Assembly (NCBI RefSeq): GCF_000789255.1 | Contig: NZ_CP009552.1 | Location: 1,426,001 to 1,490,000, forward strand | Direction: 5' to 3' | Length of the DNA: 64,000 nucleotides | From: Geoglobus acetivorans | GTDB taxonomy: Archaea > Halobacteriota > Archaeoglobi > Archaeoglobales > Archaeoglobaceae | Part shown: piece after piece, positions 5,486 to 40,989 of the stretch | How the letters are laid out: each line of letters begins with the position of its first letter | How positions within the stretch are numbered: position 1 is the stretch's first letter | Translations under genes and position numbers: made by a program | The notes under the pieces: model-generated | The model's input: only the letters and a program-made list of their open reading frames with translations | The model's database searches: none | What the model was told of the DNA's origin: nothing

Positions 5486-6877
5486 TTATTCAGCCGTTTT
5501 TTCCTTCTTCTTGTATGCAGGGTGATACTTCACTATGTACTTCCTCTCGATCTTTGTCAGCTCGCTTTCTGGAAGCATCGAGAGGAGGTCCCAGCCAATA
5601 TCAAGGGTCGTCTCGATGTCTCTGTCCTCGTATCTTCCCTGCTGTACGAATCTCCTTTCAAACTCATCCGCAAATCTGAGGTATCTTCTATCTCTCTCCG
5701 AAAGCGCCTCCTCACCAACAATTGCAACGAGACCTCTGAGATCGACACCCTCAGCATAGGCTGCATACATCTGGTCGTTCCACTGCACATGATCATCTCT
5801 CGTCTTACCCTCGCCAATACCTTCTTTCATCAGCCTGCTGAGTGATGGCAGAACGTTGATGGGCGGGTAGATACCCTTGGCGTGCAGCTCTCTGCTGAGC
5901 ACGATCTGTCCCTCTGTGATGTAGCCGGTGAGGTCCGGAATCGGGTGAGTGATGTCGTCTCCCGGCATCGTAAGGATGGGCATCTGGGTGATCGTACCCT
6001 TCCTTCCCCTGATTCTTCCTGCCCTCTCGTAAATCGTAGCAAGGTCGGTGTACATGTAACCCGGATAGCCTCTTCTTCCAGGCACTTCTTCTCTCGCAGC
6101 GGAGATCTCTCTCAGAGCCTCACAGTAGTTGGTCATGTCAGTGAGGATGACGAGGACATGCAAGTCATACTCGTAGGCGAGGAATTCAGCAGCGGTGAGA
6201 GCCATTCTCGGTGTAAGCAGTCTCTCAATGGCAGGATCGTTTGCCAGGTTCAGGAAGACCACTGCTCTTTCGAGTGCTCCGGTCCTCTCAAAATCCTTCA
6301 TGAACTGGTGAGCCTCTTCGTAAGTGATACCCATGGCCGCAAAGACGACAGCGAACTCTTCTCCTTCCCCTCTAACCTTTGCCTGCCTTGCCACCTGCAG
6401 GGCTATATCGTTATGGGGAAGACCTGAACCGGAGAAAATGGGCAGCTTCTGTCCTCTGACAAGGGTGTTCATTCCGTCTATGGCCGATATACCGGTCTGT
6501 ATGAATTCTCTTGGATACTCTCTTGCGTACGGATTAATAGCCGCACCAATAATCTCCCTTCTCTCCTCCGGAACGATCTTGGGCCCACCATCGATTGGAT
6601 CTCCTGAACCACTCAGAATTCTCCCGAGCATGTCGTAACTGACGTTAAGCCTGATGATGTCTCCGGTAAACCTCACAGTTGATGAGGTGTCGATACCTCT
6701 CGTACCCTCGAAAACCTGAACGACAACGACATCCTTTGAGGTGTCAAGAACCTGTCCTCTCCTCGTTGACCCGTCGGGCAGTGTTATCGTAACCAGCTCA
6801 CCGTAACCAACCGGCTCTGTCTTCTCAACAAAGACAAGAGGTCCGGAAACCTGAGTGATTGTTTTGTATTCTTTCAT
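5486..6877 (-). CDS. atpB: A-type ATP synthase subunit B
   Basis: Non-catalytic regulatory subunit of the A3B3 head, 463 residues. It has the family start ([14 protein letters not shown]), the [11 protein letters not shown] segment that replaces a functional P-loop, and the [15 protein letters not shown] region. It lies directly after atpA with no gap: the atpA stop ends at 6878 and this ATG begins at 6877. Head subunits are encoded F-A-B-D as in other euryarchaea. Confidence 0.97.
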
Positions 6878-34499: not shown

Positions 34500-35086
34500 A
34501 TTCTGAATACCTTGAGAACGCTCAGAACCGGGATGCCCTCCACATCATCGTGGCTCCTCTTGTCAACTATCACCGCTGCTGCTATAACGTTTCCGCCCCT
34601 CTTCCTTATGCTCTCAGCCACCTCGTGAATCGTTTTTCCTGTGGTGATGATGTCATCAACAACCACACACGCCTTTCCGGAAACGTTTGCAAAGTTCTCA
34701 CTGAATGTTCCCCTCGCATGGCTTTCCTCGCCATCCCATTTGAGCTTCTTTGGATAGTATATCGAAAGCTCACAGCCAATCTCCTCAGCGACCATCGTCG
34801 CTACCGGAATGCCGGAAGTTGCGACACCAACAATGACATCTGCATCTCCGGCATCAAGAACCATATCGGCAAGTATTCTCGCCATCTCTCTGAGCCTGAA
34901 TGATGAACCGTTAATGCTTTTCAGCTCAACATAAATATCAGATGGAGGTCTTTCCGTTCTTGAACTGGTTAAAAGCCAGATTGCGGTATCACGGGATATG
35001 TTCAATTCATCAGCAATTTCGCCGGTAGTCAGACCCTTCTCCTTGAGCTGCTTTGCTCTCTCAACAAGCTCCTCAATTTTACTCAT
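34496..35086 (-). CDS. orotate phosphoribosyltransferase-like regulator (GfcR-like)
   Basis: A 196-residue protein with an N-terminal helix-turn-helix (TTGEIADELNISRDTAIWLL, about 19-38) joined to a type I PRTase domain. The PRPP loop is VVDDIITTGKTIHEVAE, as in orotate PRTases. Haloarchaeal GfcR, with the same layout, is a transcription activator of sugar-degradation genes, so a regulatory role is more likely than pyrimidine synthesis. It is coupled to nob1 upstream (ATGA) and to the glycosyltransferase downstream. Confidence 0.86.
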   Translation of the reverse strand: MSKIEELVERAKQLKEKGLTTGEIADELNISRDTAIWLLTSSRTERPPSDIYVELKSINGSSFRLREMARILADMVLDAGDADVIVGVATSGIPVATMVAEEIGCELSIYYPKKLKWDGEESHARGTFSENFANVSGKACVVVDDIITTGKTIHEVAESIRKRGGNVIAAAVIVDKRSHDDVEGIPVLSVLKVFRI

Positions 35087-35538
35087 TTTTTCACCACCTT
35101 TTTAAGCCTGGTTTCGCTCCCGCAAATCTCACATACCTCTTTCTCAGTTCTCCTGCCACAACCCTTACATACACGAATCCATTTAAATTCTTTTTCAATG
35201 CCCTTCTGCAGAATTCTTTCCAGATTTAACCCGAGCTTTCTCGCCACATTCTGAACAGCATAATCATCGCTCACAACTGTCGCATTATATTCCAGTGCCT
35301 TCGCCAGAACCCGTATATCTGTCTCGCTGAGCTTGTAAATGTCCCCGGTTTTTTCTGCCGCTTTTTTCACCTCAGAAATGAACTCTTCCCTCGCATCCTC
35401 AACCCGAATATTCTTAATCTCAAAATAGAGCCTGGAGTTCTCATCCCTGATCTCGTTAACAACCTCCGGGACGGTTACCATATCATCAAAAATTGCCTTC
35501 CTGAGTATTATTGCAGACGTGTCGAGGACATGCATCAT
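35083..35538 (-). CDS. nob1: endoribonuclease Nob1
   Basis: PIN-domain endonuclease with a C-terminal zinc ribbon that cuts the 3' end of 16S rRNA. About 151 residues. The PIN residues are in HVLDTSAII, TVPEVVNEI, ETDIRVLAKA and VVSDDYAVQN. The zinc ribbon is CKGCGRR then CEICGSE. The frame runs 234 bases further upstream, but the start VLDTSAI is the normal Nob1 N-terminus, so ATG 35538 was chosen. An ATG at 35535 also fits. Rio1 and Pno1-like partners are at 26-27.5 kb. Confidence 0.92.
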   Translation of the reverse strand: MMHVLDTSAIILRKAIFDDMVTVPEVVNEIRDENSRLYFEIKNIRVEDAREEFISEVKKAAEKTGDIYKLSETDIRVLAKALEYNATVVSDDYAVQNVARKLGLNLERILQKGIEKEFKWIRVCKGCGRRTEKEVCEICGSETRLKKVVKK

Positions 35539-35588
35539 GGTCATGCCAGCGGGAGTGCATAAATTTTTTAGTTCAGAGCCTGCGATGT

Positions 35589-35989: not shown

Positions 35990-37135
35990 TCAAAGGAATA
36001 GCAGATACACAAGAGCGCTCATGACTGCGATTCCCATAATGAAGCCCAGTGCAATTCCTTTTTTAAATTGACTTTTACCATATTTTTTGTATTCTGAGGA
36101 CATATCATTGATTAAACTCTTTTTTTCTTTGATTTTATTTTCCAAAACGATTATGGAGTTCTTGAGTTTGCTTATTTCTTTGTTTTTTTCAATTATCATA
36201 TCGTATACCGAGAAATGTGTTTTTTCTCCGCTCAGGGACTCTTCTAAATTTTCACCCAATACGTATAGTATCTGGAAAACATCCTTTGCTATAGCCCTAT
36301 TGATTCTCATGAGTTTATCATAAAGCTGCTTAAAAAACTTATAATAATCTTCAATCAACTCCTCTTTTATTGATAAAAGATTTTTGCCATTGTATTTTTT
36401 ATAAATTTCATCTCTCCACTCTTCGATTTCCTTCGCAAGATGTGCTTCAATAGTAGAGTGCTTTACCGTTGTATAATCCACCCTATTTGTCTTTTCTTCT
36501 ATGCCTCCATGACCATACAGCAATCCAATAACATTATTTAATTTAGGATTGATAAGTTTTGTAATAAGGTCGTGAAAGTCCTCAACTCTTGTTTTCCCTC
36601 CCCTATCTCCAATTCGATTAACGAGCTTTTCACACTCTTCCTCCATTTCACGCAGAGACCGTTCCAGAAAAGCTATTTTTTCTTTGAGATTAGACATATT
36701 TATATCTTGTTCTACCATAACATTGTAATACGAGAACAATTCTATGTATCCTGTCAGCTGTTGCTCCAGTACACGGCCCAGCTCATACAGATTCTCAAAT
36801 ACCTCTTTTGACAGACTTATATCCAATTTCTTAAGTTCAGGATAGAGATTCAAAATCAAATTGTGATAATCTTTAAGAAAATCCCTTTTGATTAGCTCAA
36901 ATTCTCGATTACCATATTTTTTATAAATGCCATCCCTCCAGTCATTAATCTTACCGATAATTAACTCTTCCACAGGTCTCCATCTAACCGAGATCGAATC
37001 TACCCTGTATTCTAAGTTTCTCTTATTGCTTTTATGACTCTGAAGAAGCCCGATAACATGATTTAACCTAGGATTTAGGATCTTTGTGACAAACTCGTAA
37101 ATATCGCTTACTTCGCCCATACCATCTGACATCAT
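35990..37135 (-). CDS. tail-anchored protein of two tandem about 180-aa repeats
   Basis: No known family recognised. The 381 residues contain an internal duplication. Repeat 1 (about 8-165) and repeat 2 (about 185-345) share a start of the type NPRLNHVIGLL / NPKLNNVIGLL, then WRDGIYKKY / WRDEIYKKY, LYELGRVLEQ / LYVLGENLEE and a closing coiled-coil helix. A charged linker leads to one C-terminal membrane span (IALGFIMGIAVMSALVYLLFL). There is no signal peptide, so the bulk should face the cytoplasm. The A+T-rich, A/T-ending codons differ from the flanking genes. It lies inside the tRNA-linked island and has its own promoter. Confidence 0.7.
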   Translation of the reverse strand: MMSDGMGEVSDIYEFVTKILNPRLNHVIGLLQSHKSNKRNLEYRVDSISVRWRPVEELIIGKINDWRDGIYKKYGNREFELIKRDFLKDYHNLILNLYPELKKLDISLSKEVFENLYELGRVLEQQLTGYIELFSYYNVMVEQDINMSNLKEKIAFLERSLREMEEECEKLVNRIGDRGGKTRVEDFHDLITKLINPKLNNVIGLLYGHGGIEEKTNRVDYTTVKHSTIEAHLAKEIEEWRDEIYKKYNGKNLLSIKEELIEDYYKFFKQLYDKLMRINRAIAKDVFQILYVLGENLEESLSGEKTHFSVYDMIIEKNKEISKLKNSIIVLENKIKEKKSLINDMSSEYKKYGKSQFKKGIALGFIMGIAVMSALVYLLFL

Positions 37136-37321
37136 TCTCCCCCCACGAGAGAATTATTCGTGTATAACTATTTTAAACTTTTCAATCTATTATTTCAATC
37201 TATTCAGGAAAAGTAGAGGAGAATTAGTAGCAATATGCAGTTGAATAATCAATATTACGCATCTTTCCTTCTTTTGCATTTAAAGACCGTCTTCCCCGTT
37301 CTTTCTCATCTTTATAGATCA

Positions 37322-38797: not shown

Positions 38798-39214
38798 CTA
38801 TTTTTCTAAAATAAAAGCAAATGCAGTCAATCCAAACAAGCCCATAACAACAAACAGGAAGAAAAAGCCAGTACCTGCCCACAATGCCCCACTGAAAGAT
38901 TTAGACGATAAAACAAAATTGATTGCATAAACAGTTAAACCACCATACACTCCCGCAATGTAGCTTGCCATATACTGGTTTCTATCGTTTTTTGGAACCC
39001 TTCTTTCAATCTCCTTTTTTATGAACATCTCATAAACAATAACGACTATAGAAAGAGCAAAAAGCAACACACCAATCGCAAAAATATGAAGCCCAAGTGT
39101 GACTGTGCTGATTGAAATTTTAATAGGATGTATTGCCATCCAGTAACCCGCACCTGTTATCATGGAAGAAGAGATAAGCAAGATTATTGGTACGTTCCTA
39201 TTGTTTAATCCCAT
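38798..39214 (-). CDS. four-span membrane protein, 138 aa, function unknown
   Basis: Four hydrophobic helices are evident (about 9-27, 38-62, 83-103, 110-133), separated by a basic loop (IKKEIERRVPKNDRNQ) between helices 2 and 3. No recognised family. It is convergent with the AN1-CAP gene, sharing a T/A-rich 90-base gap that may terminate both. A TATA-like box (cttttaaaa on the minus strand, near 39240) lies upstream. A+T-rich composition matches the island. Confidence 0.6.
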   Translation of the reverse strand: MGLNNRNVPIILLISSSMITGAGYWMAIHPIKISISTVTLGLHIFAIGVLLFALSIVVIVYEMFIKKEIERRVPKNDRNQYMASYIAGVYGGLTVYAINFVLSSKSFSGALWAGTGFFFLFVVMGLFGLTAFAFILEK

Positions 39215-39381: not shown

Positions 39382-39849
39382 GTGAACAACTCTCCGAAAG
39401 ATAATCTCATTTTTAAAAAATTCCATAATCTTATTATGTATCCCCGAATTTCAGCATCTCATATTACATCTAACTTCGAAACCAGACTCAAAGAATTCTT
39501 AGAATGGGTAAATCACCCATTAGCATCCTCTTCAAACACACAAGTGACGGGCCGGAGGGGATTTGAACCCCAGACACCGGGATTAAGAGGATTGCAACGC
39601 CAAAATAAAGCCGTAGAAACGGAGATTTTCGACTTAAAAGACTTCTACGAGGAGTTTAAACCTGAATTTGAAAAATGGCTTAAATAAGGAAAGTTCCAGA
39701 ACTTTGCCATAGAGCATGGACTGAAAACTGAGGCAGTCCGGTTTATTGTGGGACACTCTCCAACAACTGTTGGGAAAGCTCATTACTACAACCTCAGGAA
39801 GTTGGCCAGAGATGAATATCGGAAACTGATTGACAAATTCTCAATCTAA
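39382..39849 (+). pseudogene. tyrosine integrase remnant interrupted by the att site
   Basis: One frame runs through three blocks. (1) An N-terminal integrase piece, residues like RLKEFLEWVNHPLAS, up to about 39535. (2) A stretch that is the antisense translation of the tRNA 3' half (TGRRGFEP). (3) A C-terminal integrase part, broken by a TAA at 39685-39687, then continuing to 39849 with VRFIVGHSPTTVG and HYYN. The GH and Tyr of the tyrosine-recombinase active site are seen, but the region with the first Arg and its neighbours is missing, so it is dead. Blocks 1 and 3 probably come from two different integrations that met at this att site. Confidence 0.7.
39530..39588. repeat. left att site: duplicated 3' half of tRNA-Lys
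   Basis: This 59-bp block is a direct repeat of 40898-40956 with one mismatch (A at 39572 for C at 40940). It covers the tRNA 3' half from the end of the acceptor stem back to the anticodon loop, plus 18 bases beyond the 3' end. Weaker similarity reaches about 24 bases further left. Such displaced tRNA ends mark the far boundary of an integrated element. Confidence 0.85.
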
Positions 39850-39936
39850 CCCCAACTGTGGATCGATTCCACCTCTTTTACTCCTCTCTTTCAGTAATCA
39901 GCAAATTAAATATACCATTGTATAACAATAACAGAT

Positions 39937-40173
39937 ATGGTAACTGAGAAAGGAAGGCTTGTAATCCCGGTTTCCCTCCCTGAAGGTCTGGTTAAGGAAC
40001 TTGATGAGCTCGTAAAAAAGAAAGTATTTTCTTCAAGGTCTGAAGCTCTCAGATACGGTGCAAGACTCGTGGTTCTCCTTGAGAAAGGAGTCCATGCAGA
40101 GGCTGAAGATTACGCATACGAAATAATCAAGGAAAGGCTTGAAAGGAGAGTCAGGGATGTATCCGGACACTGA
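39937..40173 (+). CDS. ribbon-helix-helix antitoxin (VapB/CopG-like)
   Basis: A 78-residue protein with an N-terminal ribbon-helix-helix fold (GRLVIPVSLPEGLVKELDEL, then SSRSEALRYGARLVV) and a C-terminal helix for toxin binding. It overlaps the PIN toxin gene by 17 bases, the normal antitoxin-first order. It should bind its own promoter, where a TATA-like stretch (aaatatacc) lies about 30 bases upstream. It sits between the two att copies. Confidence 0.85.
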   Translation: MVTEKGRLVIPVSLPEGLVKELDELVKKKVFSSRSEALRYGARLVVLLEKGVHAEAEDYAYEIIKERLERRVRDVSGH

Positions 40174-40546
40174 TGTCATACTATCTCAGATAAAGGAAAA
40201 AGACTGGCTCAAAGATATCGTGAAAAGAAAACTCGAATCCATAGATGAGGAGTTTGTTACCTCTGCGATTACAATCGTGGAGTGTCAGATTGTGCTCGTA
40301 AGAGAATTCGGAAGGGATGAGGCAGTGAAGGTTCCTGAAAGAATCAAAGAGCTTGGTGTCATGATCCTTCCCCTAAGCAAGGAAGTTCTTGAAATTTCAT
40401 CTGACTTGCTTGAGAGGTATCCAAAACTGAATGTTTTTGATTCGATACATCTGGCTCATGTAGTCCATGAAGGTGAAAGAATACTATCAACCGACAGGCT
40501 GTTTGACGAAGTTGAAAATATTGTCAGGGTGGATCCCTTAAAGTGA
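40157..40546 (+). CDS. PIN-domain toxin (VapC-like)
   Basis: A 129-residue PIN endoribonuclease. Acidic residues are placed as expected: an N-terminal Asp pair (PDTDVIL), Glu in TIVECQI, Asp in FDSIHLAH, and STDRLFDEV. The ATG at 40157 gives the start at PDTDVIL and the overlap with the antitoxin. An upstream start in the same frame would run deep into the antitoxin gene. Expected to cut tRNA or rRNA when the antitoxin is lost. It is the only intact cargo between the att sites. Confidence 0.85.
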   Translation: MYPDTDVILSQIKEKDWLKDIVKRKLESIDEEFVTSAITIVECQIVLVREFGRDEAVKVPERIKELGVMILPLSKEVLEISSDLLERYPKLNVFDSIHLAHVVHEGERILSTDRLFDEVENIVRVDPLK

Positions 40547-40752
40547 GTGATGCCGTTTGTCTTTTTCACCCATTAAATCCCAGTTATCACCTTAGAACGT
40601 GCTAAGATTGTGGTGCAAAAATCAGAATATTCCCCTTCCTTGGAACTCGAAAGAATTTTCGAACTCCTCGAGACATGGACCTGTCGAAAGATTGTTAGAC
40701 GAACTGACCGGGTATCCCCGGTAACACCACATAGTTGGAGTGTATACATTGA
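40547..40752. other. non-coding or decayed stretch between VapC and the integrase fragment
   Basis: About 200 bases with no convincing gene. A plus-strand frame without an ATG reads through 40590-40765 (LELERIFELLETWTCRKIV) and could be a fragment of a lost gene. It has no start signal or recognised match. The opposite frame is equally unconvincing. Confidence 0.35.
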
Positions 40753-40956
40753 CAATATTCCGAAATAATTTCACCCTGTAAACAACCACACCATATCACC
40801 CCAGAAGCTTCAAGGGAGTGCATCCCTAACCTGTCCCAGTTTCCCGAAAATCGTCTCCTGGAGTTTCTGAAGTGGGTTAATCACCCATTAGCTTCCACTT
40901 CAAACACACAAGTGACGGGCCGGAGGGGATTTGAACCCCCGACACCGGGATTAAGA
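40753..40956 (+). pseudogene. integrase N-terminal fragment, Int(N), ending in the tRNA att site
   Basis: An open frame with no clear start reads NLSQFPENRLLEFLKWVNHPLAS and then passes antisense through the tRNA gene. The last part matches the block before the left att site almost residue for residue (RLLEFLKWVNHPLAS against RLKEFLEWVNHPLAS). This is what integration by an SSV-type integrase produces: the gene is split at att, leaving the N-terminal piece against the tRNA gene and the C-terminal piece at the other end. Confidence 0.65.
40898..40956. repeat. right att site within tRNA-Lys
   Basis: Direct-repeat partner of 39530-39588, 1,368 bases away in the same orientation. Its right edge falls in the anticodon loop, a standard crossover location for archaeal tRNA-targeting integrases. 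The two copies bound a 1.37-kb segment that carries Int(C), VapBC and Int(N). Confidence 0.85.
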
Positions 40957-40989
40957 GTCCCGTGCTCTGCCTGGCTAAGCTACCGGCCC
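40916..40989 (-). tRNA. tRNA-Lys (anticodon CTT)
   Basis: All arms fold. The acceptor stem is GGGCCGG with CCGGCCC, discriminator G. The D stem is GCTT with GAGC, the anticodon stem CGGGA with TCCCG around loop CTCTTAA, giving anticodon CTT. The T stem is GGGGG with CCCCT around TTCAAAT. CCA is not encoded, as usual in archaea. It is 74 bases long without an intron. A TATA-like stretch (ttgataaat, minus strand, about 41013-41021) is at the right distance for its promoter. The integrated element lies against its 3' end and preserves the full tRNA. Confidence 0.95.

Follow-up and report, generated by a model that had tools for sequence, protein, structure and literature searches.

A two-repeat, putatively tail-anchored protein of Geoglobus acetivorans and its provirus-borne relatives in the Archaeoglobales

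Introduction

The closest described systems to the gene analysed here are the moron-type cargo genes of archaeal proviruses and the genes of dark-matter islands (PMC4158269), together with the pleolipovirus-like proviruses published for the Archaeoglobi, with examples in G. acetivorans and, within a tRNA-Gly, in A. veneficus (PMC10919331). The gene, here called P, lies in a 64,000-nucleotide stretch (the window) at positions 1426001-1490000 (G000:C1) of the 1,860,815-base single-contig genome of Geoglobus acetivorans. The family of P resembles moron-type and dark-matter genes in consisting of narrowly distributed, fast-diverging genes found in tRNA-integrated Archaeoglobales elements and opposed to the viral operons. 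A tRNA-Gly is used both by the provirus AvPV1 and by one of the elements carrying a P relative. P has, however, no homology to any named product. The carrier elements matched no deposited phage genome, and an AvPV1-like identity of the carrier viruses is at most conjectural.

Results

The P gene and its architecture

GC content of the P stretch was approximately 32-36%, compared to approximately 46% around the locus. A strong Shine-Dalgarno sequence (GGGGGGAG; 37137-37144) and a TATA-like box (AAGTTTAAAA; 37171-37180) are located upstream of the start. Comparison with the counterpart in the sister species (G025) gave a dN of 0.32 and a dS of 1.47, and the resulting dN/dS of approximately 0.22 indicates that P is a genuine protein-coding gene under purifying selection. 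The features of the locus are listed in Table 1.

Table 1. Features of the P locus, with positions counted from the first letter of the window.
Feature	Position	Strand	Remarks
P, two-repeat tail-anchored protein gene	35990..37135	-	381 aa; ORF, half-versus-half alignment, hydrophobicity, dN/dS
Promoter-like and ribosome-binding sequences of P	37137..37180	-	read from sequence
Repeat 1 of P (residues 1-178)	36602..37135	-	helical domain and coiled coil (residues 130-175), without membrane span
Repeat 2 of P (residues 179-381)	35993..36601	-	four-helix bundle (predicted), coiled coil, tail anchor
C-terminal membrane span with glycine zipper GxxxGxxxG	35993..36058	-	hydrophobicity and sequence
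AN1 zinc finger - membrane span - CAP protein, 444 aa	37372..38706	+	divergent neighbour of P
Multi-span membrane protein, 138 aa	38798..39214	-	adjoins the pair in the two Geoglobus only
tRNA-Lys (CTT)	40916..40989	-	one border of the variable slot
PIN_6/Nob1-like gene	35083..35568	-	other slot border; present in 7 of 7 genomes of the genus
Separate 1.37-kb tRNA-Lys insertion	39547..40914		tRNA 3' copy, integrase C-terminal remnant (about 39590-39850), RHH-PIN pair (39937-40546)

A preliminary description of this gene had proposed two diverged repeats sharing the blocks NPxLNxVIGLL, WRDxIYKKY and LYxLGxxLE at the same spacing, and the alignment bore this out. The two halves (residues 1-178 and 179-381) aligned over 161 residues with 37% identity and 61% similarity (BLASTP E 2e-34). 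The alignment score was 295 compared to 39.5 +/- 7.2 for 2000 shuffles (maximum 86), and judged from these alignments the homology of the halves is beyond doubt. The three blocks recurred at offsets of 178, 177 and 177 residues, a spacing that is equal to within one residue. Each half has its coiled coil after the helical domain, with a heptad contrast p of 0.002 in repeat 1 and 0.007 in repeat 2.

One hydrophobic span was detected, at about residues 360-381 (Kyte-Doolittle 2.45), agreeing with the single terminal membrane span described earlier. No second span was present in P, which consequently has the layout of a tail-anchored protein, with a single C-terminal span and no other in the N-terminal bulk. 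An N-in, C-tail topology is expected because lysines precede the span and no charge follows it, the chain ending there; the cytoplasmic placement of the bulk is read from this positive-inside rule only. GxxxG spacing was found in the span of all five family members (shuffle p 0.008-0.05 in four and 0.22 in one).

An AF2 model of repeat 2, built from an alignment of three sequences, resolved into four helices (mostly pLDDT 77-94), one long helix and one membrane helix, with a mean pLDDT of 73. Taken with the single C-terminal span, this model is in line with the helical cytoplasmic domains on a membrane anchor that had been suggested for P. We read the four helices as packing into a bundle, going by the order of the elements and by weak Foldseek matches to helical bundles. 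A single-sequence model of full-length P had a pLDDT of 48, was too poor and was set aside.

Searches for known families

Foldseek searches of solved structures (PDB) and viral structures with the repeat 2 model returned no significant match. There was a loose likeness to four-helix bundles of the S23/Avd type (PDB 2rld and viral Avd-like models; target TM 0.53-0.56), but with a Foldseek E of approximately 1 it was not significant, the model having a pLDDT of 73 and three sequences behind it. P resembles VAMP/SNARE-type tail-anchored coiled-coil proteins in having a coiled coil that runs into a C-terminal span; the profile match to VAMP2 (E 0.09), however, was limited to generic coiled coil and span, and the N-terminal domain differs. 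No SNARE family of Pfam matched P, whose likeness to this group consists only of the weak PDB profile match to VAMP2.

Pfam, NCBIfam and PHROGs gave no convincing match to P, the best Pfam match (E 0.01) being below the cut-off and within the coiled coil, and P itself had no match in PADLOC-DB. Other family members gave scattered weak PADLOC-DB matches (best 2e-4, to PDC-M33C over 62 residues) that were not common to the family. The initial impression that no known family was evident therefore held across all of these collections and the PDB, and no confident match of the halves to a known housekeeping family was obtained. With tblastn, P and a provirus-borne relative found nothing in phages and plasmids. 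Both single-sequence and alignment scans of viral contigs found no P relative; of the genome contigs, the single-sequence scan found no relative and the alignment scan returned the G004 locus only (see below). From these comparisons, P appears to be a member of a new, uncharacterised protein family.

Relatives in the Archaeoglobales

Convincing relatives of P were found in four other genomes among 57 Archaeoglobales, none of them with the two-repeat form. The sister Geoglobus (G025) has a single-repeat relative of 205 aa at the same locus as P, and a member of another genus (G014) has one of 187 aa in its chromosome. The G004 relative (173 aa) has 29% identity to repeat 1 (E 2e-14), and the G007 relative is frameshifted. 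The motifs of P are conserved across genera. Repeat 2 and the G025 and G014 proteins are about equally distant from one another (53-56%), and in a tree repeat 1 fell outside the group formed by these three (support 86), indicating that the doubling in P is not a recent copy. Weak profile matches across the phylum (393 genomes; E 1e-4 to 1e-2) were rejected as relatives, being partial matches. The linkage counts reported for P are small, with five known loci, two of them in sister species.

The AN1-TM-CAP neighbour

An association of P with the adjacent AN1-CAP gene had been noted from G. acetivorans, and this gene proved to be a constant neighbour, lying directly beside P at all three chromosomal loci (G. 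acetivorans, G025 and G014). Full-length AN1-TM-CAP orthologs occurred in the same 3 of 57 genomes as chromosomal P, and elsewhere in the phylum matches covered the AN1 end only. The two genes are divergent in the two Geoglobus and convergent in G014, so their adjacency has outlasted a change of orientation. Identity of the AN1-CAP protein is 88% within the genus and 53% to G014, a difference not seen among repeat 2 and the G025 and G014 relatives of P (53-56%); the CAP part is strongly conserved across genera. We saw no AN1-CAP gene next to P in the provirus-type elements, and it is therefore not an obligatory partner. The third gene of the trio, initially taken as a four-span partner, did not keep that place, as its relative in G014 lies 60 kb off. 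A gene near P in G014 (L014, 10352-10843; no Pfam match) has 39% identity to a homolog beside the multi-span gene in G011 (L058, 2098-2601), and these homologs are possibly a further member of the P neighbourhood.

AN1 fingers in eukaryotes have a role in ubiquitin-linked quality control. Three further genes combine an AN1 finger and a membrane span with an outward part (L039, 319-1761; L040, 478-1827; L041, 655-1815) that looks transglutaminase-like by eye, and they occur in genomes with no convincing P relative. An AN1 finger, a span and a varying outward part are thus a modular design in the Archaeoglobales, to which the partner of P belongs with CAP as its outward part, whereas P itself is not an AN1 protein. 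No description of this design, nor any of AN1 with CAP in archaea, was found in the literature searched.

A variable slot between tRNA-Lys and nob1

As Geoglobus genomes hold different genes between tRNA-Lys and nob1, this interval is a variable cargo slot across the genus. G. acetivorans and G025 carry the trio there; G026 has a TPR-repeat Ser/Thr kinase, G027 an AbiEi/AbiEii pair and G030 a PAS-like fragment. The alternatives are located at L078 1549-6132, L079 3014-6638 and L080 500-1832.

The trio had been proposed to be carried by a mobile element, and an integrase remnant lies next to it. The sister species aligns on both sides of the 1.37-kb insertion that holds the remnant, the two alignments overlapping by 44 nt that are the 3' end of the tRNA; it has the trio but not the insert. 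The remnant therefore belongs to a separate insertion and the element boundary first drawn was wrong; P as part of the adjoining integrase-bearing element was rejected accordingly. No second att copy bounding the trio was found. Positions 39477-39589 and 40845-40957 form a 113-nt repeat (85% identical) in which the tRNA 3' half and about 70 bases downstream are duplicated, more than the usual att core, which suggests entry by circle recombination or repeated integration.

In G014 the chromosomal locus lies in an island that also contains toxin-antitoxin genes and restriction genes that are broken. Neighbours of the pair there include a transposase, an XRE-IrrE gene with a DUF4411 gene, a nucleotidyltransferase, Cdc6, PolB, an HsdM-like fragment and an EVE gene.

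Divergence between sister species

Flanking DNA was mostly 88-97% identical between G. acetivorans and G025, compared to 54-76% for P and the DNA upstream of it; nothing in G025 corresponds to repeat 1. The dS of P (1.47) compares with 0.37 for AN1-CAP, 0.21 for nob1 and 0.44 for pepQ. Positive selection as the cause of this divergence was rejected, as dS is raised along with dN and the ratio is 0.22. The simplest reading is that the P allele was replaced while the genes around it stayed conserved. Such replacement fits a role in conflict with other elements without proving it, and could occur with no conflict. The multi-span gene (38798-39214) had a dS to G025 of 0.04, compared to 0.2-0.44 for its neighbours, and a recent between-species exchange of its segment is likely.

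Relatives in provirus-type elements

The G007 relative lies beside an integrase in a 21,091-base provirus-type element (contig 20, 5699-26789) bounded at 5699 and 26748 by identical 42-nt stretches from the 3' end of the tRNA-Gly. This element (L016, L086) also carries genes for membrane proteins, an ATPase of family phrog_22963, a resolvase, and MazF-like and PIN genes; two of its proteins were searched against the phage collection with no match. A relative of its ATPase (83%) is carried by G028. The G004 relative lies downstream of an integrase at tRNA-His, in an element with genes for an exonuclease, a LamG surface protein, an ATPase and what is presumably a sliding-clamp-like protein; the far end of this element was not found on the contig. 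In tblastn searches against phages, the LamG protein, a surface-protein candidate and the viral ATPase returned nothing. The ATPase family phrog_22963 is common to both elements (E 8e-55 in G004 and 1.5e-46 in G007). Of the five genomes with this ATPase, two had a P relative detected near the gene and the other three had none in the stretches read.

In both elements the P relative is oriented opposite to the flanking viral genes, a layout that would suit an independently transcribed cargo gene with its own promoter (promoters were judged by eye). Like moron-type genes, the G004 and G007 relatives appear to form their own transcription unit opposed to viral operons and are absent from related viruses in the stretches read. 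The G007 relative in addition lies inside an att-bounded element; for P in the window no bounding second att copy was found. With relatives inside two provirus-type elements and in the G014 island, the expected recurrence of the family near mobile elements was found.

Discussion

Our preferred reading, to which we give a probability of about 0.35 as a whole, is that P is a mobile-element-derived, tail-anchored accessory protein that works with AN1-TM-CAP in a membrane-based block or response to an incoming element, of the superinfection-exclusion or immunity type. Integrated viruses and variable chromosomal islands would have disseminated the small family, so far seen only in the Archaeoglobales, as accessory cargo. 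The putative cytoplasmic four-helix bundles would be the sensing or binding part, and the coiled coils and glycine zipper would assemble P on the inner membrane face. AN1-TM-CAP, with a cytosolic zinc finger, a single span and an outward CAP domain, would form a membrane complex with P, which would pass a signal or physical coupling to the outward domain and block or respond to the incoming element. The doubling of the unit in G. acetivorans would have produced a fused pseudo-dimer.

The preliminary description had proposed a membrane-based function, possibly in defence. Its mobile association stood, while the defence part is guilt by association, with no consistent PADLOC match. In favour of defence are the provirus relatives, the linkage to AN1-TM-CAP, a slot that elsewhere holds an AbiE pair or a kinase, the toxin-antitoxin, HsdM and EVE setting in G014, and the raised divergence. 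Against it, no consistent match to a defence family was obtained and co-location with mobile genes is no proof of defence. Further points against it are the small number of known loci (five), the frameshift in the G007 copy, the detection of a relative in only two of five genomes with the viral ATPase, and the lack of a partner gene at the provirus copies.

A somewhat unlikely alternative is that P and AN1-TM-CAP serve an envelope or stress function, such as turnover or remodelling of surface proteins, and that the variability of the locus is incidental. AN1-TM-X proteins with other outward domains in these archaea suggest that the role of the partner is a general one in the envelope, and the pair is conserved in two genera. 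P is, however, rare, provirus-borne and unusually diverged, whereas housekeeping partners normally have a broader distribution.

A role of P in viral morphogenesis or membrane remodelling, as a virion or egress factor of Archaeoglobales viruses, with the chromosomal copies captured or left over, is unlikely. Two relatives do lie inside provirus-type elements, single-span coiled-coil proteins would suit membrane-enveloped viruses, and the weak profile likeness is to coiled-coil and span proteins such as VAMP2. However, the three genomes with the same ATPase and no relative detected near it argue that P is not a core viral gene, the relatives and the viral genes flanking them point in opposite directions, and in chromosomes P is under purifying selection and paired with a cellular-type gene.

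A bolder form of the preferred reading, in which P and AN1-TM-CAP are the two components of a so far unrecognised system for immunity or superinfection exclusion at the membrane, is decidedly doubtful. The recognition subunit P would be provirus-derived and would diversify by repeat duplication and allele swapping, with the partner conserved.

It is improbable that P acts as a toxin-like effector in the membrane, or as one of abortive infection, kept in check by a partner. A glycine-zipper span can oligomerise, and toxin-antitoxin pairs occupy the slot in a relative and the adjacent insertion; the soluble part of P is nevertheless large and duplicated, unlike small toxins, there is no antitoxin-like partner, and the provirus copies stand alone. 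A decaying orphan with no present function, as the narrow distribution and the frameshifted G007 copy might suggest, is very improbable given the dN/dS, the intact start signals and the motifs conserved across genera.

Even if the exclusion reading of P were false, the analysis would still define a protein family not described before and, in Geoglobus, a slot of variable content from tRNA-Lys to nob1. Little is known of membrane-level virus resistance in hyperthermophilic archaea. If that reading is true, P would be a virus-derived exclusion factor whose partner faces outward, in archaea whose viruses were described only recently (PMC10919331), and AN1 fingers would acquire a role at the archaeal membrane.
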